The notes under the pieces were generated by a model that made no database searches, was not told the DNA's origin, and worked only from the letters and a program-made list of their open reading frames with translations. A DNA stretch of 43,105 nt, from assembly GCA_003249035.1 (NCBI GenBank), contig QBMK01000033.1, positions 1 through 43,105 of the forward strand, in the 5' to 3' direction. Below, piece by piece: positions 9,428-31,655 of the stretch. The DNA is from Pseudanabaena sp. (GTDB taxonomy: Bacteria; Cyanobacteriota; Cyanobacteriia; Pseudanabaenales; Pseudanabaenaceae). The first letter of the stretch is position 1, and the number at the start of each line of letters is the position of its first letter. The position numbers and the translations under genes were made by a program.

Positions 9428-10204
9428 ATGACTATGGCAGGTTTAACCAATCCAGAAATAGCTAAAATTGTTGACCGATACATTGGTGTAAGTGATGGAT
9501 ATCTCGGAAATTTTACTTATCCATCTCATGCTGATTTTTATCCAGAGTATTGTGAGCTTGATATAGATCCTAATAAATATGAAGGAACTACACGCAAAAG
9601 ATTCATAACGATTCTAAAGAGTTTTTCTCCTCACGATTAAGCAAAGATTGTACGTGGTGTTTTAGAAAGATTTCCATTAGACCATCAATATGCCAGACCA
9701 GAGACAAGAACTAAAGAACTTTATGAAGAGTTGCTAAACATAGCTCAAAGGCTAGAGGATACATCACCCATTTTAAGCCCTGATCCTCAAATTAGTAGCG
9801 CAGTTGTTGAACGTGCAATTGCAGATGGAGAACTACTAATTCAAGCAGGTAACGCAGTGAGTGGAGTTGATCGAATTCATACTGCTTTACATGGTTATTT
9901 AATTGCTGTTTGTGACGCTGAGGGAATTGCTTACAATAAAGATCCAAACATGACTGCTTTATTTAAATTACTTCGTTGTCATCATCCTAAACTCCAGAAT
10001 TTAGGTACACGTTCAAACGAGATTGAAAAAATCTTAATATCTTTTGCTACCATCTTAGACTCACTAAATCCAATAAGAAATAAAGCAAGTGTAGCGCATC
10101 CCAATGGAGATCTACTAAACGAAGCAGAAGCATTGCTTGTTATAAATGTGGTACGCACAGTATTACATTATCTCGATTCAAAATTTGTGCCTAACCCATC
10201 TTGA
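9428..10204 (+). pseudogene. Abortive-infection-like (Abi_C) gene with in-frame stop
   Basis: Two open stretches (9428-9640 and from 9641 on) lie in the same frame, separated by one TAA at 9638-9640. Read through, they give a continuous protein of about 258 residues. The C-terminal half (SAVVERAIADGELLI, GVDRIHTALHGYLIAVCD, then NKASVAHPNGDLL) resembles the 'abortive infection C-terminus' domain of AbiJ-like proteins. A single C-to-T change (CAA to TAA) would explain the stop, giving HDQAKIV when restored. No other lesion is visible, so the damage is recent, or the downstream part is translated from an internal start (TTG at 9731). Base composition is AT-rich and HIP1 sites are absent, which suggests acquired DNA. 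Confidence 0.7.
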
Positions 10205-10760: not shown

Positions 10761-10880
10761 CTCGCGTTTTTTGTGATTGATTGGGCGATCATATTTTTTG
10801 AGGGAATGATTGGGTGATCGCGTTTTTGAGTGATTGATTGGGCGATCGTGTTTTTGTGATTGATTGGGCGATCGTCTTTA
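10761..10880. repeat. HIP1-like short tandem repeat array A
   Basis: About five degenerate units of 24-29 bp built round the core TTGGGCGATCGTGTTTT, with short variable tails such as GTGATTGA or GAGGGAATGA. The last unit runs into the stop codon of the first toxin gene (10878-10880). The same type of array recurs at 11416-11533 and 12067-12204. Not a CRISPR array: units abut without uniform spacers. Confidence 0.8.
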
Positions 10881-11144
10881 AGGGAAAAACTTGTAAATAT
10901 CCTTACGGTGCAAAAATCTTACAAAAATTACTTCATTATCCAAAACTTCTATCCCTATCCTGTAATCACCTAGGCGAACGCGATAAAAACTATCATATCC
11001 CTGCATCTTTTTTAGATTATTGATTTCCCCCAAAGATTCAGCTTGCTTACAGGACAAAATCACCTGCTTCAACCTTGGCAAAAGATTACGATCCTTGACT
11101 AACTTCAAGTCCTTTTCAAACCTAGACTCAAACCTAACATTCAT
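10878..11144 (-). CDS. RelE/ParE-family toxin, copy 1
   Basis: An 88-residue type II toxin of the RelE/ParE superfamily. The C-terminal pattern DSFYRVRLGDYRIGIEV, then VIFVRFLHRKDIYKFFP, is typical of the cyanobacterial StbE/RelE-like group: conserved Arg residues and the RxGdYRi strand. Such toxins usually cleave ribosome-bound mRNA or, in ParE, poison gyrase; sequence alone does not decide. Its ATG overlaps the antitoxin stop by 4 bp (ATGA), so the pair is coupled. A second copy, offset by exactly 652 bp, differs at 9 of 88 residues, mostly conservatively. Confidence 0.88.
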   Translation of the reverse strand: MNVRFESRFEKDLKLVKDRNLLPRLKQVILSCKQAESLGEINNLKKMQGYDSFYRVRLGDYRIGIEVLDNEVIFVRFLHRKDIYKFFP

Positions 11145-11368
11145 GCAACATCACCATCTAGAAGCGCAAAGATATTCTCTTCAGGAACAAACTCATTTTT
11201 TCTACCCTCAGCGATCGCATTCCCCAAACCGACCTCTTCTAAAGCATCTTGGAATATTTCCGCAAAAAGCTCCTTTCTAGTCTTAATCAAATCAATTAAG
11301 ATTTCAGTGAGCATTTCTTTTGTCTTCTCATCGTTAAGGAGTATTTGCATATTCAAACTCTCATTCAT
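11141..11368 (-). CDS. Antitoxin, copy 1
   Basis: A 75-residue protein directly upstream of, and overlapping by 4 bp, the RelE/ParE-type toxin. It is mostly helical and charged, with an acidic C-terminal tail (FVPEENIFALLDGDVA) of the kind that wraps the toxin. I see no clear ribbon-helix-helix or HTH motif, so its DNA-binding fold is uncertain. The second copy differs at only three residues (8, 17, 19); the C-terminal two thirds are identical. The repeat array at 11416-11533 begins 47 bp upstream of its start and may serve as its control region. Confidence 0.82.
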   Translation of the reverse strand: MNESLNMQILLNDEKTKEMLTEILIDLIKTRKELFAEIFQDALEEVGLGNAIAEGRKNEFVPEENIFALLDGDVA

Positions 11369-11415: not shown

Positions 11416-11533
11416 GAGATCGCGTTTTGGTTGGTTGGGCGATCGTGTTTTTGGTGCGTGGTTGGGCGATCGTGTTTTGGGTTGGATGATTGGCGATCGT
11501 GTTTTGGGTGAGTGATTGGGCGATCGCCTTTAA
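11416..11533. repeat. HIP1-like short tandem repeat array B
   Basis: Five units of roughly 23-28 bp around the core TTGGGCGATCGTGTTTT, lying between the two TA copies. It is upstream of antitoxin copy 1 and runs to the stop codon region of toxin copy 2. On the minus strand the interval between array and antitoxin has TTGATG (11400-11405) and TATAAA (11379-11384), a weak promoter candidate. Confidence 0.8.
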
Positions 11534-11796
11534 GGGAAAAACTTGTAAATATCCTTACGATGCAAAAATCTTACAAAGATTAATTCATTTTCCAAAATTT
11601 CTATCCCTATCCTGTAATCACCTAGACGAATGCGATAAAAACTATCATATCCCTGCATCTTTTTTAGATTATTGATTTCCCCCAAAGATTCAGCTTGCTT
11701 ACAGGTCAAAATTATCTGCTTCAACCTTGCCAAAAGACTACGATCCTTGACCAGCTTCAAGTCCTTTTCAAACCTAGCCTCAAACCTAACATTCAT
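11530..11796 (-). CDS. RelE/ParE-family toxin, copy 2
   Basis: The second copy of the 88-residue RelE/ParE-type toxin, in the same orientation and exactly 652 bp from copy 1. It is full length, with the conserved C-terminal block around RIRLGDYRIGIEI and FVRFLHRKDIYKFFP intact. The nine differences from copy 1 are mostly conservative (S7A, N20S, P23A, several V/I exchanges). Its ATG overlaps the copy 2 antitoxin stop by 4 bp. Whether the two pairs cross-neutralise is open, but the near-identical antitoxins make it likely. Confidence 0.88.
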   Translation of the reverse strand: MNVRFEARFEKDLKLVKDRSLLARLKQIILTCKQAESLGEINNLKKMQGYDSFYRIRLGDYRIGIEILENELIFVRFLHRKDIYKFFP

Positions 11797-12020
11797 GCAA
11801 CATCACCATCCAGAAGCGCAAAGATATTCTCTTCAGGAACAAATTCATTTTTTCTACCCTCAGCGATCGCATTCCCTAAACCGACCTCTTCTAAAGCATC
11901 TTGAAATATTTCCGCAAAAAGCTCTTTTCTAGTCTTAATTAAATCTATTAAGATTTCAGTGAGTATTTCTCTTGTCTTCTCATCGTTAAGGAGTATTTCC
12001 ATATTCAAACTCTCATTCAA
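11793..12020 (-). CDS. Antitoxin, copy 2
   Basis: A 75-residue antitoxin, identical to copy 1 except Q8E, K17R and M19I. It is coupled to toxin copy 2 by the ATGA overlap. The third repeat array (12067-12204) lies 46 bp upstream of the start, the same spacing as array B to copy 1, so the duplicated unit is array plus antitoxin plus toxin. Confidence 0.82.
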   Translation of the reverse strand: MNESLNMEILLNDEKTREILTEILIDLIKTRKELFAEIFQDALEEVGLGNAIAEGRKNEFVPEENIFALLDGDVA

Positions 12021-12211: not shown

Positions 12212-13446
12212 GAGACTGTCAAGGAAAATGTGTAAAGTCTAGAAACTAGAGTGAGAGGCGATCCTCGAAAAGGATGGCAAATCGATTAAGAGCAGGTTTC
12301 CAATCACGAATCGGCATTGTCCATTTCTTGGAGATATTCCGCATTGCCAAATAGACCAGTTTGAAAGCAGCCTCATCAGAAGGAAAAATCTGTTGAGACT
12401 TAATCACCTTCCGCAAACTGCTATTCATTGACTCAATGGCATTGGTGGTATAAATCGCCCTGCGAATCTCAGGAGGGAAAGCAAAGAAGGGAATAATATT
12501 TGCCCAATGACTGCGCCAAGACTTAGAGATCGACGGATATTGCCTGTCCCATTTTTCAGCAAACAACTCCAGGTTAAACTCTGTTTCTGATTCTGTCGCA
12601 GCGGCATAAATTGTCTTGAGATCTGCACAAACTTGCTTACGCTGTTGCCAAGGGACAAAAGCGACCGAGTTACGCACCATATGAACAATACATAACTGTA
12701 CCTGAGTTTTGGGAAACACAGTTTCGATAGCATTGGGAAAACCAGTTAAACCATCAACGCAAGCAATTAAAATATCTTTGACTCCACGGTTGTGAATTTC
12801 GGTGAGTACCGACAACCAGAACTTTGCACCCTCATTGGGGGAAATCCACATACCCAATAATTCCTTGTACCCTTCCATGTTTACCGCTAAGGCAAAGTAC
12901 AGGGACTTATTAATTACCCTGCCATTGTCTCGAACTTTGATGACCAGACAGTCCAGAAATACTATCGGATAGACTGCATCTAGGGGACGGTTTTGCCATT
13001 GCTTCACCTCATCGATTACGGCATCAGTGACATTGGAAATGAGCGTTGGTGATACTTCGACACCATACATTTCTTGCAACTGGGCTTGGATATCTCTGAC
13101 ACTCATCCCTCTGGCATACAGGGCAATCATCTTTTCATCTAGTCCTGACAAGCGGCTTTGTCCTTTCTTTACCAGATGCGGTTCAAACTCGCTTTGGCGA
13201 TCGAGGGGGACTGCGATTTCAGCTACGCCAAAGTCGCCTTGGACTTTTTTCTGGCTATAACCGTTACGACTGTTACTTTGTCCTTCTGGTCTGGATTCAT
13301 GCTTCTTGTACCCTTGATGGGTCGATAATTCTGCTTCTAAGGCTCGCTCCACCAACGCGGTGGTTAGTTGTTTGAGGATTCCTCCTTCTCCGAATAAGTC
13401 GGGTGGAGTTTTACATTCTTGCAGCAATTCATCGAGTAGGGGAGTT
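12212..13446 (-). mobile_element. IS256-family insertion sequence, one end missing
   Basis: The left end (3' side of the transposase) keeps a typical IS256-family terminus, GAGACTGTCAAGGAAAATG followed by TGTAAAG, at 12212-12237. The expected reverse-complement terminus beyond the transposase 5' end is absent. At about 13446 the element passes straight into the coding sequence of a CHAT protein. No target duplication can be defined. The element is therefore a remnant, probably not able to move on its own. The right boundary is good to about 10 bp. Confidence 0.8.
12246..13427 (-). CDS. IS256-family transposase, N-terminally truncated
   Basis: A mutator-type DDE transposase. The catalytic residues are in place: D159 (FLDCLVIK), D225 (ACVDGLTGF) and E332 (TTNAIESMNSS), with the C/H pair of LCIVHMVRNS between the last two. 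The C-terminus is complete. The 5' end is not. Upstream of the TTG at 13427 the frame stays open for a few codons (reading STPLLDE) and then meets a stop, with no ATG. The family normally has some 10-20 more residues here. The core is intact, but proper start and right terminus are gone, so activity is doubtful. Confidence 0.88.
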   Translation of the reverse strand: MLQECKTPPDLFGEGGILKQLTTALVERALEAELSTHQGYKKHESRPEGQSNSRNGYSQKKVQGDFGVAEIAVPLDRQSEFEPHLVKKGQSRLSGLDEKMIALYARGMSVRDIQAQLQEMYGVEVSPTLISNVTDAVIDEVKQWQNRPLDAVYPIVFLDCLVIKVRDNGRVINKSLYFALAVNMEGYKELLGMWISPNEGAKFWLSVLTEIHNRGVKDILIACVDGLTGFPNAIETVFPKTQVQLCIVHMVRNSVAFVPWQQRKQVCADLKTIYAAATESETEFNLELFAEKWDRQYPSISKSWRSHWANIIPFFAFPPEIRRAIYTTNAIESMNSSLRKVIKSQQIFPSDEAAFKLVYLAMRNISKKWTMPIRDWKPALNRFAILFEDRLSL

Positions 13447-14718
13447 GACCTTCAACCTTCCGAACAAGGCATCATTGCTCTCGCCAACGAACTAACTGCC
13501 CTCCAACAAAAAGATCGCGAAGGCAAACTCACAGAATCAGAGCAAAAACGCCTCTTCCAACTCGTCCAAGCCGAACAGACGCAAAACGAAAAATTCAACT
13601 CCTTTCTCAACAGCCCCGAAATTCAAAAGCTAACCGAAGAAATCCGCCGCACCGAACAACAGCAAAACGTCAACCTTGCCAGTTACCGCAAACTCCAAAA
13701 AGAAGTGCTATCACAAATGCCCACCGCCGTGATGCTTTATCCACTGATTTTCGACGATCGCTTGGAACTAATTCTCGTCTCGGCAAACACTCCCCCGATC
13801 CGCCGCACCGTCAAAATTAAAAAAGAAGAACTCAACCAATTAATTATTGATTTTCGGGCTGGACTGCGCGACAACGGCTCAGAGGATGTCAAAGAACCCG
13901 CTCGGCAATTATATAAAACCATTATCAAACCCTTTGAATCCGAACTAGACCAACTCAAAATCGACACAATTATCTACGCACCCGATGGACAATTGCGTTA
14001 TATTCCCCTCTCCGCACTCTATGACGGCAAACAATGGCTAATTGAGAAATATCGCATTAACAACATCACGGCTGAGTCACTCACAGGATTTAACCTTAAA
14101 CCGATTTCTAAGCCTCACATCTTAGCTGGAGCATTTGGAGGTAAAGATGGTGACAAGCGATCGGGATTTAGCGGGTTACCAGCAACTTTAATAGAAGTGC
14201 AAAAAATATCCGATCGCTTTGCCAATACCACCACATTAATAGAAGCCGCCTTCACCAAAAACGCCACGGCAACCAAAGCTAATTCCTATACAATTCTGCA
14301 CCTAGCCACCCACGGGTTTCTCTCAGTTGACAAACCAGAAGATTCTTTTATCTTGTTTGGTGATGGCGACAAAGCCACCATTCGCAATATTCAAGACTGG
14401 TCGCTCAAAAACATCGATCTTGTCGTCTTAAGCGCTTGCGAAACAGGTATTGGCAATAAGATCGGCAGTGGGATCGAAATTCTGGGGTTAGGCTATCAAA
14501 TGCAATCTGCTGGTGCGAGAGTCGCGATCGCCTCGCTCTGGAAAGTCGATGACGCAGGCACGCAAGCGCTCATGGAAGCATTTTATAGCGAACTCCAAAA
14601 AGAAAATGTCACGATCTCCGAAGCCTTACGCAGAGCGCAAATAGCTCTCATTCGATCGCCTCAATACAACCATCCAAATTATTGGTCAGCTTTTTTGGCG
14701 ATCGGCAATGGTTTGTAA
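13441..14718 (+). pseudogene. CHAT-domain (caspase-like) protein, 5' part lost at IS junction
   Basis: Encodes the C-terminal part of a cyanobacterial CHAT (caspase HetF-associated with TPR) protein. A coiled-coil-like helical segment (about the first 90 residues) is followed by the peptidase domain with both catalytic residues: His in LATHGF (codon 14311) and Cys in SACETG (codon 14437). The end is complete. The expected N-terminal TPR repeats and start codon are missing because the frame runs into the truncated IS256. An open frame does continue to a GTG at 13360, antisense to the transposase, so a chimeric product cannot be excluded. CHAT proteases act in programmed death and defence in other systems; this copy is probably dead or newly chimeric. 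Confidence 0.75.
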
Positions 14719-23687: not shown

Positions 23688-24365
23688 ATGTATATCAAAA
23701 TTTGTGGCATTACGAAACTTGAGCAAGCCCAAGAAATCGCTCAAATGGGAGTCGATGCACTTGGTTTTATTTGTGTAGCCTCATCACCACGATATATCAG
23801 CGCATCTGGGATCGGTCAAATCACCTCTAGTTTACTCTCTGTGCAGTCCAAGATTCTAGGGGACTGTCCTAGATGCTCAGAGCTAGATTTGATTGGAGTA
23901 TTTCTGAATTCAAGTGTTAGTGAAATCTGTGAAACAGTGTCTCTAGCTGGACTAAATGCGGTGCAACTACATGGTGATGAATCTCCAGAATTTTGTAATC
24001 AACTGCGATCGCAGTTAAATACTACTAACTCCAAAATCAAGCTAATTAAAGCGCTCAGAGTTAAAGATCAAGCAGGTTTAGAGCAAGCCCATCTTTTTAG
24101 TAATGTTGTAGATGCGGTTTTACTTGATGCTTATGATCCACACATGGCGGGAGGAACTGGCAAAACTCTGGATTGGCAAATGTTGCGCGATTTTCGTCCA
24201 GCTTGTGACTGGTGGTTAGCAGGAGGCTTATCACCTGAGAATGTTGCCGAGGCGATCGCGCTGTTACATCCAAAGGGTTTGGATGTGTCCAGTGGGGTGG
24301 AGCGCTCCGCAGGAGATAAGGATTTGGCTAAAGTTAAAAAATTTATTGCGCTAGCAGAAGTTTAG
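23688..24365 (+). CDS. trpF: Phosphoribosylanthranilate isomerase
   Basis: TrpF converts N-(5-phosphoribosyl)anthranilate to CdRP in tryptophan synthesis, in a TIM barrel. Family motifs are complete: N-terminal IKICGIT with the catalytic Cys, GVDALGFICVASSPRYIS, AVQLHGDES, VDAVLLDAYDPHMAGGTGKTLDW with the catalytic Asp, and the phosphate-binding LAGGLSPENVAEAI and GLDVSSGVE. The ATG at 23688 (giving MYIKICGIT) is preferred over two TTG codons just upstream. It is 225 residues, normal length. The TAG stop coincides with the first bases of a truncated MITE copy that follows directly. Confidence 0.95.
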   Translation: MYIKICGITKLEQAQEIAQMGVDALGFICVASSPRYISASGIGQITSSLLSVQSKILGDCPRCSELDLIGVFLNSSVSEICETVSLAGLNAVQLHGDESPEFCNQLRSQLNTTNSKIKLIKALRVKDQAGLEQAHLFSNVVDAVLLDAYDPHMAGGTGKTLDWQMLRDFRPACDWWLAGGLSPENVAEAIALLHPKGLDVSSGVERSAGDKDLAKVKKFIALAEV

Positions 24366-24485
24366 GGCTGGCACGGGGGCGCAGCCCCTACAGAATCTAA
24401 ATTTTTTGGGTAGGGGCACCCCCCCGTGGTTGCCCTGCCAAGCTACCAGCAAGAGATTCATCATCTGCGTTCCGCGTAATATCAG
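24363..24485. repeat. Truncated copy of the 164-bp MITE
   Basis: This 123-bp stretch matches the right three quarters of the element at 30266-30429: GGGCTGGCACGGGGGC-CAGCCCCTACAG, a variable AT-rich centre, GTGGTTGCCCT, AGAGATTCATCATCTG, and the terminal TCC-CGTAA-ATCAG. The left 40 bp including the left terminal repeat are absent. It fills the gap between the trpF stop and the phrA stop (24486). As in the full copy, the bases directly outside the right end are TTAA. Confidence 0.8.
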
Positions 24486-26964: not shown

Positions 26965-29499
26965 ATGCAAACAAATGTTGCTAATCAAACCAGCAATATT
27001 ACGGTAGAAGACGATCGCACAGGTTTAAGTATTGAAACCCTCAAGCGTGCATTTGCCGACAACCTGTTCTACATACAAGGCAAGCTCGCGATCATCGCCA
27101 ACTTCACCGACTACTACATGGCGCTGTCGTACACTACACGCGATCGCCTTTTGCAACGTTGGCTGCAAACCCTCAAGGTCTATCACGAACAAGACATCAA
27201 AACCGTCTATTACCTCTCTGCCGAATTTCTGATGGGGCGACATCTTGGTAATAGCTTAATTAACCTTGACCTGTATGAATCGATCGCCCAAGCAGTCAAA
27301 GAGTCAGGACTTGACCTAACTGAAATCCTAGAACAAGAACCCGATCCCGGACTTGGCAACGGTGGTCTTGGACGCTTAGCCGCTTGTTTTCTAGATTCGC
27401 TTGCGACCTTAGAAATTCCCGCAATGGGCTATGGTATTCGTTATGAATTTGGGATTTTCAACCAAGCAATTCAACATGGTTGGCAGGTCGAAATTCCTGA
27501 CAAATGGCTTAAATGTGGCAACCCTTGGGAAGTCGTGCGCTACGAGTCCACAGTCCAAGTCAAATTTGGCGGACATACCGAAATCTATAACGACGATCGC
27601 GGTCTTCCTCATACCCGTTGGATTCCTAGCTTCACCGTCGAAGGGATTCCCCACGATACCCCTGTTCCCGGATATCAAACCAACACGGTTAATACATTGC
27701 GTCTTTGGAAAGCTGAGGCAGGTGAAGACTTTAACTTCCAAGCCTTTAACTCTGGCGACTATGACGGCGCGGTAGCAACCAAGATCAAATCGGAAACCAT
27801 TTCCAAAGTTCTTTACCCCAACGACAACACACCTCAAGGTCGTCAATTACGACTAGAGCAGCAGTTCTTCTTTGTATCCTGCTCACTCCAAGACATCATT
27901 CGTCGCCATCTCAAAAAATATGGTCGTCTGGACAATCTTGCCGATCATGCCGCCGTTCAGCTCAATGACACTCACCCAGCCATCAGCATTGCCGAAATGA
28001 TGCGTTTGCTGGTGGACGATCATCAAATGTACTGGGATGAAGCTTGGCGAATTACCCAAAGCACCTTTGCTTACACCAATCACACCCTGATGCCTGAAGC
28101 TTTAGAAAGATGGGGTGTACCTTTATTTGAAAGCTTATTGCCTCGCCATTTGGAAATCATTTACGAAATCAATCATCGCTTCTTGCAAGATGTGCAGACT
28201 TGGTATCCTGATGATGATGAGTTGCTATTGCGCCTATCAATTATCGAAGAAGGCGGCGAGAAAAAAGTACGGATGGCAAACCTCGCCACTATCGGCAGTC
28301 ATGCGGTTAATGGTGTTGCAGCTCTACATACCGAGTTGCTAAAACAAGATGTATTAAAAGATTTCTATAAGCTTTGGCCAGAGAAATTTAATAACAAAAC
28401 CAATGGAGTTACTCCTCGCCGTTGGGTATTGCTGGCTAACCCTGCGCTGTCCGCATTTATTACTGAAAAAATTGGTGATACTTGGCTGAAGCATCTTGAT
28501 GAACTTCGTAAGCTTGAGGCGTTTGTCGATGATAAAGATTTTCGCGATCGCTGGAGACAGATTAAACAAGCCAACAAGCAAAAACTTGCCGATTATATTC
28601 GCACTCACAACGGTGTAGAAGTCGATGTTAATTCCATCTTTGACATCCAAGTAAAACGCATCCACGAGTACAAGCGTCAGCATCTTGACCTACTGCACAT
28701 CATTGGACTGTATCTACGGATTAAGCAAAATCCTAGTATTAAGATTACTCCTCGTACTTTTGTGTTTGGTGGTAAGGCTGCGCCTGGCTACTTCATGGCA
28801 AAGTTGATCATCAAAGCGATCAACGCAGTAGCTGATGTTGTCAATCGCGATCCTGATGTGCAAGGTCGCATCAAGGTTGTCTTTCTTGCTAACTTCAGTG
28901 CCTCACTTGGTCAATTGATTTATCCTGCTGCTGATTTGTCAGAGCAGGTCTCGACCGCAGGTAAAGAAGCTTCGGGTACTGGAAACATGAAGTTCACGAT
29001 GAATGGTGCTCTGACTATTGGTACTCTTGACGGTGCTAACATCGAAATTCGTGAAGAAGTTGGCGATGATAATTTCTTCCTCTTTGGTCTGACGGCGGCT
29101 GAAGTTGAGCAGAAGAAGGCTGATGGCTACAATCCTCAAACATACTATCAAAGCAATGAAGAACTTCGCAATGTTCTCGATCGCCTCGGTATGGGATATT
29201 TCTCTCCTGGCGATAAGGACTTGTTTAAGCCTCTAGTGGATTCGCTGATGTATCACGATGACTATATGCTTTTAGCTGATTATCAAGCTTATTCAGATTG
29301 TCAGGCTGAAGTCAGTGCCGCATATCAAGATGTCGAGAAATGGACAACTATGAGCATTCTCAACGTGGCAAGATCTGGTAAGTTCTCTTCCGATCGCACG
29401 ATCAAAGAATACTGTGATGAGATCTGGAATGTTAAGCCCGTGAAAGTGGAGTTAGAGCCCTATGATCCTGCAAGGGCAACGCTCAATGTTGGTGGTTAA
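26965..29499 (+). CDS. glgP: Glycogen phosphorylase
   Basis: GlgP releases glucose 1-phosphate from glycogen chain ends with orthophosphate and PLP, the main dark-time route for carbon mobilisation. The 844-residue product is of usual length. It shows the N-terminal VYYLSAEFLMGRHLGNSL and EPDPGLGNGGLGRLAACFLDS, the central NGVTPRRW, and the PLP site EASGTGNMKFTMNGALTIGT with the cofactor lysine K676. Sites for animal-type phosphorylation are not evident. Upstream the gap of 215 bp has no gene; a strong terminator follows at once. Confidence 0.97.
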   Translation: MQTNVANQTSNITVEDDRTGLSIETLKRAFADNLFYIQGKLAIIANFTDYYMALSYTTRDRLLQRWLQTLKVYHEQDIKTVYYLSAEFLMGRHLGNSLINLDLYESIAQAVKESGLDLTEILEQEPDPGLGNGGLGRLAACFLDSLATLEIPAMGYGIRYEFGIFNQAIQHGWQVEIPDKWLKCGNPWEVVRYESTVQVKFGGHTEIYNDDRGLPHTRWIPSFTVEGIPHDTPVPGYQTNTVNTLRLWKAEAGEDFNFQAFNSGDYDGAVATKIKSETISKVLYPNDNTPQGRQLRLEQQFFFVSCSLQDIIRRHLKKYGRLDNLADHAAVQLNDTHPAISIAEMMRLLVDDHQMYWDEAWRITQSTFAYTNHTLMPEALERWGVPLFESLLPRHLEIIYEINHRFLQDVQTWYPDDDELLLRLSIIEEGGEKKVRMANLATIGSHAVNGVAALHTELLKQDVLKDFYKLWPEKFNNKTNGVTPRRWVLLANPALSAFITEKIGDTWLKHLDELRKLEAFVDDKDFRDRWRQIKQANKQKLADYIRTHNGVEVDVNSIFDIQVKRIHEYKRQHLDLLHIIGLYLRIKQNPSIKITPRTFVFGGKAAPGYFMAKLIIKAINAVADVVNRDPDVQGRIKVVFLANFSASLGQLIYPAADLSEQVSTAGKEASGTGNMKFTMNGALTIGTLDGANIEIREEVGDDNFFLFGLTAAEVEQKKADGYNPQTYYQSNEELRNVLDRLGMGYFSPGDKDLFKPLVDSLMYHDDYMLLADYQAYSDCQAEVSAAYQDVEKWTTMSILNVARSGKFSSDRTIKEYCDEIWNVKPVKVELEPYDPARATLNVGG

Positions 29500-29511
29500 C
29501 ATCTAAATCGC

Positions 29512-29548
29512 AAATAGAAAAGGCTCGCTAAGCGAGCCTTTTCTATTT
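29512..29548 (+). terminator. Intrinsic terminator of glgP
   Basis: AAATAGAAAAGGCTCGCT and its complement AGCGAGCCTTTTCTATTT face each other at 29512-29529 and 29531-29548. The GC-rich core flanked by A- and T-tracts is a classic rho-independent shape, 12 bp after the glgP stop. Confidence 0.85.
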
Positions 29549-29574
29549 GTTTCAAAATTTCTATCTCATTAATT

Positions 29575-30758
29575 ATGAAAATCGCCTTTTTCAATACCAA
29601 GCCCTACGATCGTCAATCGTTTAATTTTGCTAATGATCGACATCAGCATGAAATAGTTTTTTTTGAATGTCGTCTTAGCCATGAGACTGTTTCCCTTGCC
29701 ATAGGTTTTTCTTCTATCTGCATTTTTATTAATGATTACCTAGACGCAGAAATGTTAGAGAAGCTAGCTCAAGGTGGCACTAAATTAATTGCGCTACGAT
29801 CGGCTGGATTTAATCATGTGGACTTAGCTGCGGCATCGCATTTGGGAATGACGATTGTGCGCGTTCCAGCTTATTCTCCCTATGCAGTTGCCGAACATGC
29901 GATCGCTTTAATTTTATCGCTCAATCGTAAAGTCCATCGAGCCTATAACCGCGTTAGAGAAGGCAACTTCTCCATTGAAGGATTACTTGGTTTTGATCTA
30001 CATGGGGCAACAGTGGGCGTAATTGGCACTGGTCGAATTGGTGCAATTTTTGCCCAGATTATGAGTGGATTTGGTTGTAAATTAATCGGCTTTGATGCTT
30101 ATCAGAATCCTGTTTGTTTAGAAATGGGAATGGAGTACGTCTCAATGCCCGAACTCTTCGCTCAGTCAGATATTATTTCGCTCCATTGTCCACTTACTCC
30201 TGACACACATTATTTGATTAATGCCGAAGCGATCGCCCAAATGAAACCTGGGATGATGTTAATTACTGATGTTACGTGGATGGAATACCTACAACCTTAT
30301 AAGTATAGGGCTGGCACGGGGGCACAGCCCCTACAGTATTGAAATTATTGAAGTAGGGGCAATCGCCCTGTGGTTGCCCTATCACGCTAGCAGAAAGAGA
30401 TTCATCATCTGAGTTCCACGTAACATCAGTTAATTAATACAAGTCGCGGTGCATTAATTAATACTCAGGCTGCGATTGATGGTCTCAAGTCAGGCGTGAT
30501 CGCCTATCTCGGTATTGATGTGTATGAGCAAGAAGCAGATTTGTTTTTTGAAGACCTGTCCAATGAAGTTATTCAAGATGATGTATTTCAGAGATTGCTA
30601 ACTTCCCAAATGTGATTGTTACAGGACATCAGGCTTTCTTTACTAGCCAAGCTCTTGCCAATATTGCTGATACTACACTCTCAAATATTACAGAATTTGA
30701 GAAGAGTGGAAATTGTGCAAATGAAGTAAAAATCGAAAATGCGATCGCCACGAAATAA
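29575..30758 (+). pseudogene. D-2-hydroxyacid dehydrogenase, split by MITE and frameshift
   Basis: The N-terminal part (29575-30265) and C-terminal part (from 30430) form a D-lactate-dehydrogenase-like 2-hydroxyacid dehydrogenase when the 164-bp insert at 30266-30429 and one copy of its 7-bp target repeat are set aside. The NAD motif GVIGTGRIG and catalytic region ([17 protein letters not shown]) precede the insert. [16 protein letters not shown] and [11 protein letters not shown] follow it. A second lesion near 30601-30606 (one base missing) takes the frame to a TGA at 30613; in the +1 frame the protein resumes as [14 protein letters not shown], with the catalytic His, and ends at 30758. The enzyme reduced pyruvate or similar 2-ketoacids; this copy cannot. 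Confidence 0.9.
30266..30429. mobile_element. 164-bp MITE inside dehydrogenase gene
   Basis: The termini are perfect 15-bp inverted repeats: CTGATGTTACGTGGA at 30266-30280 and TCCACGTAACATCAG at 30415-30429. A direct TTAATTA flanks it on both sides (30259-30265 and 30430-30436), a target-site duplication. It has no coding capacity. The interior includes the palindromic 'GGGCTGGCACGGGGGC...CAGCCCCTACAG' block. Removing it restores the reading frame [12 protein letters not shown] truncated relative is at 24363-24485. A transposase acting in trans is expected, but none with these ends is in the window. Confidence 0.9.
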
Positions 30759-30809
30759 CACCAACGAAAACCCAATATTTAGTGGTGCGTGGCTCTGCCG
30801 CACTCGGCT

Positions 30810-31655
30810 TTAGTCGCTGTTAAATACAGCGCGATCGCGTCCTTGGTTTTTAGCTAGATATAAGCCTTTGTCAGCAGATTCAATTAGACTTCTTGCATGA
30901 ACGTTCCTATCAGGCATAGTTGTGGATATACCAACACTGACAGACACACATTTTTTCACAAAAGAGGATTCGTGCGGAATATTCAGAGCAGCAATTGCAT
31001 GACAAACCTCTTCAGCGATAAAGGTAGCCCCTTCTTTTAGAGTGTTAGGCAAAATCACCGCAAACTCTTCACCACCATATCGAGCCACCATATCGGCAGG
31101 GCGACGAGTACAAGTCTCGATCGTCTTTGCCACTGCTCGCAAACAGTCATCACCCGCAGGATGTCCATAGCGATCGTTATAGCGCTTAAAAAAATCCACA
31201 TCACACAGTAATAAAGAAAGCGGCATATGCTCTCTAGATGAGCGTTGCCATTCTTGCTCCAATCTTTGGTCGAAAGCTCGACGATTAGAAATCTGGGTCA
31301 AGCCGTCTATGGTAACTTCGCGGGCAAGCGATAAAGCTCGGTCGTAAAGCAGGGCTTCGATCGTATCACTATGGGATGTGGTGGTATCAAGAATGATTTC
31401 TAGATCGTTTTTTTCACTTGAGAGTCGATCTAAAAGCAATCTCAGAGCTGTTTCTGTCTGTTGGCGATCGAGAATTTCAGTTTGTAGCCGATAATTAGCT
31501 TGCGATAGTTGTTCTTCGTGAATAGTTTTTGTGTTTAAAAGCTCTTTTAAGCTGATGCACTGTGCTTGTAACAATTGGATCTCTTGCTCTAAGCGCTCAA
31601 CTTTAGCCAAGAAAAGTTTTTCATTAGTAACTATTTGGTGGTTTTCGGGTTCCAT
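30810..31655 (-). CDS. GGDEF diguanylate cyclase with coiled coil
   Basis: A cytoplasmic diguanylate cyclase of 281 residues, making c-di-GMP from two GTP. Residues about 10-105 form a long coiled coil with no recognised sensor domain. The GGDEF domain (about 116-280) has GGEEF at 194-198 and the inhibitory I-site RPAD at 185-188, five residues before it, so it should be active and subject to product inhibition. The ATG at 31655 is preferred to an in-frame TTG at 31682. It is convergent with the dehydrogenase pseudogene and transcribed in the same direction as ureF, from which a hairpin separates it. Confidence 0.9.
   Translation of the reverse strand: MEPENHQIVTNEKLFLAKVERLEQEIQLLQAQCISLKELLNTKTIHEEQLSQANYRLQTEILDRQQTETALRLLLDRLSSEKNDLEIILDTTTSHSDTIEALLYDRALSLAREVTIDGLTQISNRRAFDQRLEQEWQRSSREHMPLSLLLCDVDFFKRYNDRYGHPAGDDCLRAVAKTIETCTRRPADMVARYGGEEFAVILPNTLKEGATFIAEEVCHAIAALNIPHESSFVKKCVSVSVGISTTMPDRNVHARSLIESADKGLYLAKNQGRDRAVFNSD

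Follow-up and report, generated by a model that had tools for sequence, protein, structure and literature searches.

The 164-bp element at positions 30266-30429 of the window, that is, the whole 43,105-nucleotide stretch analysed here, which is contig C26 of a Pseudanabaena genome of 4.55 Mb in 60 contigs (G000), most probably belongs to a Pseudanabaena-wide MITE family that would be mobilised in trans by a 1.13-kb insertion sequence (IS), with an interior that travels as passive cargo, and its insertion interrupted a D-2-hydroxyacid dehydrogenase gene, a pseudogene that also carries a 1-nt deletion. From sequence comparison, we put the probability of this reading as a whole at about 0.93. The element itself is a MITE, an ordinary kind of mobile element, albeit one that is resolved unusually fully. 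The case links a genus-wide MITE family to a likely mobiliser and to a target rule (6-7 bp, TTANTWA).

The ends of the element, CTGATGTTACGTGGA at 30266-30280 (plus strand) and TCCACGTAACATCAG at 30415-30429 (minus strand), match at 15 of 15 positions, or 16 of 16 when the A/T pair at the edge of the target-site duplication (TSD) is counted; by a rough estimate, the chance expectation for a perfect 16-bp inverted repeat within some 300 bp is about 1e-5. The duplication, TTAATTA, lies at 30259-30265 on the left and 30430-30436 on the right. Between the ends, two 28-nt palindromes form an inverted pair; both start with GTAGGGGC, and their GTAG tags point inward. Unit 1, which carries its tag on the minus strand (GTAGGGGCTGTGCCCCCGTGCCAGCCCT), occupies 30307-30334, and the related unit 2 (GTAGGGGCAATCGCCCTGTGGTTGCCCT), in the opposite orientation on the plus strand, occupies 30353-30380. 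The element, read on the plus strand and referred to below as type A, is non-coding, the only listed open reading frame that enters it being that of the broken host gene. The initial annotation had described exactly such an object, a 164-bp MITE with perfect 15-bp ends and a 7-bp duplication splitting a dehydrogenase gene, and we reproduced each of these features at the same positions; its further proposal that the element is non-autonomous is backed by empty sites in relatives, an identical second copy, the duplications across the family and an IS whose ends and TSD lengths agree with those of the MITE.

The product of the interrupted gene is a D-2-hydroxyacid dehydrogenase (PF02826, PF00389). 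The 5' part of the gene (29575-30265, plus strand) has a frame that continues into the MITE up to 30342, and the 3' part (30437-30758, plus strand) contains a 1-nt frameshift near 30603 compared with relatives. Homologues at E <= 1e-60 were detected in 14 of the 17 same-genus relatives searched, with open frames of 338-365 aa in all 14; at this threshold, none was found in G001, G006 and G012. The element and one copy of the TSD are absent from every one of these 14 homologues when aligned to the window, so that the check for empty sites in related strains that had been suggested gives the same answer throughout, here by sequence alignment; the finding that had been named as counting against recent insertion, namely, the insert conserved in the dehydrogenase genes of other species, did not turn up in any of the 14 same-genus homologues. 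In the closest of these (G016, protein 95% identical), the site reads ATGATGTTAATTAATACAAG.

When the window flanks are fused at one TSD copy, the frame stays open across the site and is colinear with the relatives. To that extent, the earlier claim that removal of the insert restores the coding frame stands, but it does not extend to the gene, because there is a second lesion, a 1-nt deletion near 30603, at which the window reads LLTSQM-stop where the relatives stay open. The missing base is present in the 4 relatives that were aligned letter by letter, every one of the 14 homologues shows one or more gaps in the second aligned segment, and the C-terminus beyond 30603 sits in another frame, ending at 30756-30758. 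As sequenced, then, this is a predicted pseudogene with two lesions, the MITE insertion and the 1-nt deletion, to which we assign no order and the second of which could be a sequencing error. Two further copies of the dehydrogenase family, 61-62% identical, are found on contig C22 of G000. Could the split be an artefact of assembly or annotation? The related IS lies at the end of several of the 60 contigs of this draft genome, which would make such an error conceivable, but the TSD is exact at the junctions, the flanks are colinear with those of 14 relatives, and many copies of like structure are present in other assemblies, including near-complete ones (G022, 6 contigs); we find an artefact hardly credible.

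Within G000, the MITE has 11 matches at E <= 1e-3. Apart from the window MITE itself, these include a full-length, 100% identical copy at C18:38010-38173, located between two convergent frames and with a 5-bp duplication (TTAGA); the remaining nine matches are 70-84% identical, and six of these are plainly partial. The window itself contains a second, left-truncated family copy at 24358-24485 (plus strand; 84% identical over query positions 36-164), which overlaps the end of a trpF-like frame and abuts a photolyase-like frame (both named by eye). Across 58 genomes, 21 match the MITE; 17 of these are among the 26 genus members and 4 come from outside the genus, and nine of the 26 yielded no match among the candidates scored. 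Scoring covered at most the best 14 candidates in each genome, which makes the counts per genome lower bounds. Three of the four out-of-genus genomes (G030, G044 and G056) were searched again, and all 81 matches listed there fall within query positions 35-121, none reaching the MITE ends (with scoring confined, in two of these genomes, to the best 40 candidates). Exact paired ends 125-155 bp apart occur at 156 places in 16 of the 26 genus genomes, with 42 places in a single genome, compared with 0 for a reversed control pattern. The family is Pseudanabaena-wide.

To characterise the family, we assembled 81 full-length copies from 60 stretches around the best-scoring matches and the loci already known, after removal of matches short of either end, of copies whose flanks were short and of exact duplicates. 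Exact duplications in this set are 7 bp long in 39 copies, 6 bp in 19, 5 bp in one, 8 bp in one and 0-4 bp in 21; an exact TSD of 6-7 bp thus accompanies 58 of the 81 copies, compared with a mean of 2.8 after permutation of the right flanks among copies, and is missing in 23. The copies are not fully independent: in at least two cases, L163/L169 and L162/L170, two species appear to share one insertion. The 7-bp duplications of type A and of a second type of element, type B, described below (n = 51 together), follow the pattern T-T-A-N-T-W-A, and the one in the window, TTAATTA, is the commonest of them (9 of 51). These family-wide target duplications prove that the MITE is mobile. The initial annotation had regarded the one interrupted gene as strong evidence of recent mobility; a single gene is weak evidence by itself, and it is the data on the whole family that establish mobility. 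Recent movement of the window MITE is supported by the empty sites and by the second copy elsewhere in the genome, because that copy is 100% identical. Members of the family seldom disrupt a long frame: among the 60 copies with a duplication of 5-8 bp, frames of at least 300 nt across the joined flanks are absent at 51 and present at 9.

So which transposase could move the element? The genome search with the 15-bp ends, which had been proposed as a test, not only lists copies but also leads to a likely autonomous IS. With up to 2 mismatches, the end pattern occurs at 21 sites in G000 compared with 7 for a reversed control, which means that two-mismatch sites may be due to chance. For six of the 21 sites, the distance to a contig end is 39-88 bases, a position to be expected of a repeated IS, which tends to break an assembly. 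One contig of G000 reaches about 1 kb into the IS and gives a partial open frame of 325 aa, from a DDE transposase, that scores 328.7 bits against the NCBIfam model NF049921 (transpos_IS701_2, cut-off 250); the named records that carry its relatives at the highest identity are Pseudanabaena. A complete IS of 1134 bp is present in G014 (L035). Its two ends are the same as those of the MITE (15/15), its TSD is TAATGA, and its transposase gene terminates in a TAA that falls within the right inverted repeat; judging by length and TSD, L090 of P. biceps PCC 7429 is apparently this very element. The IS of G007 (L038, apparently L088, a MAG) is 1131 bp long, with a left end that is one base off and the duplication ATATTAA, and a P. 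biceps O153 plasmid carries two copies with the duplications TTAGTTA and TAATTCA.

A whole copy of the IS was not seen in the contigs of G000, where we infer three copies at contig junctions. Three left ends and four right ends are present; the right ends match the MITE at 15/15 bases, and the left ends (CTGATGTTACGTAGA) match at 14/15, being one base off. Exactly three of the 12 possible left-right pairings share a flank of at least 6 bp, namely, C21-C5 (TTAATAA, 7 bp), C8-C33 (TTATATTA, 8 bp) and C59-C60 (TCATCA, 6 bp), and the fourth right end, on C55, has no partner among the three left ends. The right end of the IS, CTGATGTTACGTGGAAGGAA, comprises 20 bp that are common to 40 of the 81 MITE left arms; the window MITE is not among these 40. 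Of 61 IS loci fetched, 25 were tested; at seven of them, paired ends are flanked by an exact duplication of 6-7 bp, the other 18 lacking an exact duplication or a proper end pair in what was a crude search. Three of the seven are records named Crenothrix, Methylococcaceae and Gammaproteobacteria, with ends that begin CTGATGTTACGC, apart from one end of L105, which differs by one base. In viral contigs, three stretches matched a pattern and none of them encodes a relative of the transposase.

Taken together, these observations suggest a scenario in which the transpos_IS701_2-type transposase of an IS that resides in G000, with ends that match those of the MITE at 14-15 of 15 bases, moves the MITE in trans. 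The DDE transposase would bind the ends that the IS and the MITE share, excise the MITE and insert it with a stagger of 6-7 bp at targets of the TTANTWA type, and the interior palindrome pair would most likely be passive cargo; the insertion in the window interrupted the dehydrogenase. Two other candidates were considered for the role of mobiliser. The IS256 copy in the window (12246-13427) was set aside once the IS described above, which agrees with the MITE in its ends and TSD length, had come to light. An ISKra4-like fragment on contig C22 (L016) was likewise set aside; its matches listed in other genomes cover the end region only (query positions 5-56), the exception being a single match, at 94%, to its body in G005. 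The short ISKra4-like frame of this fragment (L016, 1240-1515) falls far short of the cut-off of 205 with its score of 17.2 bits and starts exactly at the shared 15-bp end, which supplies its ATG; a capture of the frame by IS ends is possible.

The affiliation of the partner IS is less straightforward than the model score implies. Its transposase passes the IS701_2 model (NF049921) and reaches only 104.8 bits, compared with a cut-off of 250, with NF049925 (IS4_4). The family survey describes, in the sections relevant here, nearly all IS701 members as having an exact 4-bp duplication and a length of 1400-1550 bp, with the Y of the YREK signature kept in only 4 of 27 members, whereas IS4 members keep YREK (PMC2266710). 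In contrast to this description of IS701, the partner IS is about 1.1 kb long, produces duplications of 6-7 bp and retains YREK; the signature (Y-2-R-3-E-6-K) is intact in 20 of 22 IS loci tested and in G000. Overall, the duplications range from 6 to 8 bp (6-7 bp at the seven loci, and 7, 8 and 6 bp at the G000 pairings), and within the IS4 family, for which those sections give 8-13 bp, and 7-8 bp for the ISPepr1 subgroup (PMC2266710), they overlap mainly with the ISPepr1 range. The partner IS resembles ISPepr1, as portrayed there, in YREK, AT-rich targets, 5'-CT ends and, in part, TSD length (7-8 bp in ISPepr1), and differs from it in length (about 1.1 kb as opposed to 1500-1600 bp) and in its ends (CTGATGTTACG as opposed to YT-AA-YTT) (PMC2266710). 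Thus, a group of transposases filed under IS701 keeps an IS4-type YREK and makes 6-7 bp duplications; the IS701 label does not fit neatly, and the family assignment deserves review.

In the interior of the MITE, unit 1 is recognised in 77 of the 81 copies and starts with GTAG in 72, and unit 2 is recognised in 80 and starts with GTAG in 78. Each unit has a complementary stem of its own, GGGCTG/CAGCCC in one and GGGCAA/TTGCCC in the other. Interior-like palindromes without MITE ends occur, among the matches listed, in other genera (G030, G044 and G056), and an origin of the pair from REP-like units is plausible. Type-B elements, 149-151 bp long, have the same ends and duplications as type A, with 6-8 bp duplications in 17 of the 20 copies fetched, but the palindrome that forms their inverted pair, CCCTCACCCC...GGGAGAGGG, is unrelated; the type-A motif GTAGGGGC occurs in 0 of these 20.

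The GTAG tags on both units in most copies (72 and 78 of 81) raise the question whether movement depends mainly on a RAYT/Y1 (HUH) transposase acting on the tagged palindromes rather than on a DDE transposase acting on the ends, all the more as G000 encodes two Y1_Tnp genes amid GTAGGGG-tagged repeats. Movement of the IS200/REP type is not known to leave a target duplication. The exact duplications at the ends of 58 of the 81 copies are not expected from HUH movement, the repeats beside both Y1_Tnp genes have a different body (GTAGGGG[CT]AGAGCATT), and type B does without GTAGGGGC and yet has the same ends and TSDs, all of which makes movement by such an enzyme very improbable. The two RAYT-like genes (L282 on C40 and L283 on C57) have repeats of the GTAGGGG[CT]AGAGCATT type nearby in both orientations.

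A different role for the palindromes, the retention of the MITE as a regulatory or RNA-structured repeat, for instance, a processing or termination hairpin, is suggested by its very stable single-strand fold (z = -6.66 with DNA parameters, TSDs included), by the two internal stems that persist in most of 51 copies and by the alternative complementary stems of the two units. An alignment of these copies, 51 of 74 distinct full-length ones, nevertheless reveals negligible covariation (-0.3 of -27.7 kcal/mol), with a two-sided change of any kind in only 3 of 30 pairs. No Rfam family overlaps the element even below threshold, all 10 matches in 29400-31000 being below the gathering score and outside it; a scan for promoters and terminators gave sites at chance level and none inside the element; and the window copy breaks a gene. 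A conserved RNA structure is not supported, the fold being stable but almost free of covariation, and retention in any such role seems unlikely to us.

The two types differ in their interiors and share their ends, and the arms of some copies vary in a way that suggests hairpin-mediated rewriting. An inverted hairpin loop is found in two of the 81 type-A copies (L154 and L166), and opposite-arm units or half-units are present in the type-A copies L155, L151, L159 and L194. A common type-B insertion site, with identical 40-bp flanks, exists in two related genomes (L251 in G038 and L260 in G040). The arms at this site are symmetric in G040 and asymmetric in G038, a difference that is a candidate template-switch event. 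The birth of the elements by simple fold-back is not supported, because the spacers between ends and palindromes are unequal in the two arms, in types A and B alike (read by eye). One could go further and propose a composite class of mini-transposons, IS ends around inverted REP-like palindromes, that has arisen at least twice (types A and B) and whose arms are rewritten by hairpin template switching. If so, REP dimers, beyond deletion of IS, would build and maintain MITEs. We regard this proposal as tentative and rather improbable: repair of the arms is not general, because the ends are mutually perfect, both being exactly the TIR sequence, in only 40 of the 81 copies, and the novelty of the class is diminished by published cases of REP dimers inside palindromes and of a REP inside a MITE.

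How does the family compare with elements already described? Bacterial MITEs derived from insertion sequences, for example Nezha of cyanobacteria (cited in PMC3733652 and PMC10969869) and MITEAba12 (mentioned in PMC10969869), are likewise short and non-coding, have TIRs and TSDs and lie mostly outside genes, and an IS that shares their ends presumably moves them in trans. Their ends, TSD length and partner IS are not known to be those of the window MITE. Cyanobacteria also possess GTAG-tagged REP dimers, and in Anabaena variabilis, GTAG-15 dimers are reported, in the section on these repeats, to lie inside long palindromes (PMC3733652). By this description, as opposed to unit sequence, the window MITE is similar in having an inverted dimer of GTAG palindromes within a longer palindrome, whereas the longer palindrome could here be traced to the ends of an IS group and is flanked by TSDs. 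A likeness, again by description and from a different host, is seen with QMITE2 of Coxiella burnetii, which the corresponding section presents as a MITE holding a GTAG REP (PMC10969869). No title of a paper on a Pseudanabaena MITE was found among the matches listed in open-licence PMC. The present family is a cyanobacterial case of REP-like palindrome pairs that travel between IS ends, and as such it bears on the spread of both MITEs and REP dimers.

Other features were noted in the window. A direct repeat of 300 nt, at 10851-11150 and 11503-11802 (94% identical), contains in each copy a gene for an 88-aa ParE-toxin-like protein (PF05016), and short GGGCGATCGTGTTT repeats surround the copies. 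The IS256-family transposase gene is divergent from and overlaps a CHAT-domain frame (PF12770) in the region 12246-14718, and this frame looks, by eye, truncated by the IS256 element. Finally, a gene at 9731-10204 has an abortive-infection C-terminal domain (Abi_C, PF14355).
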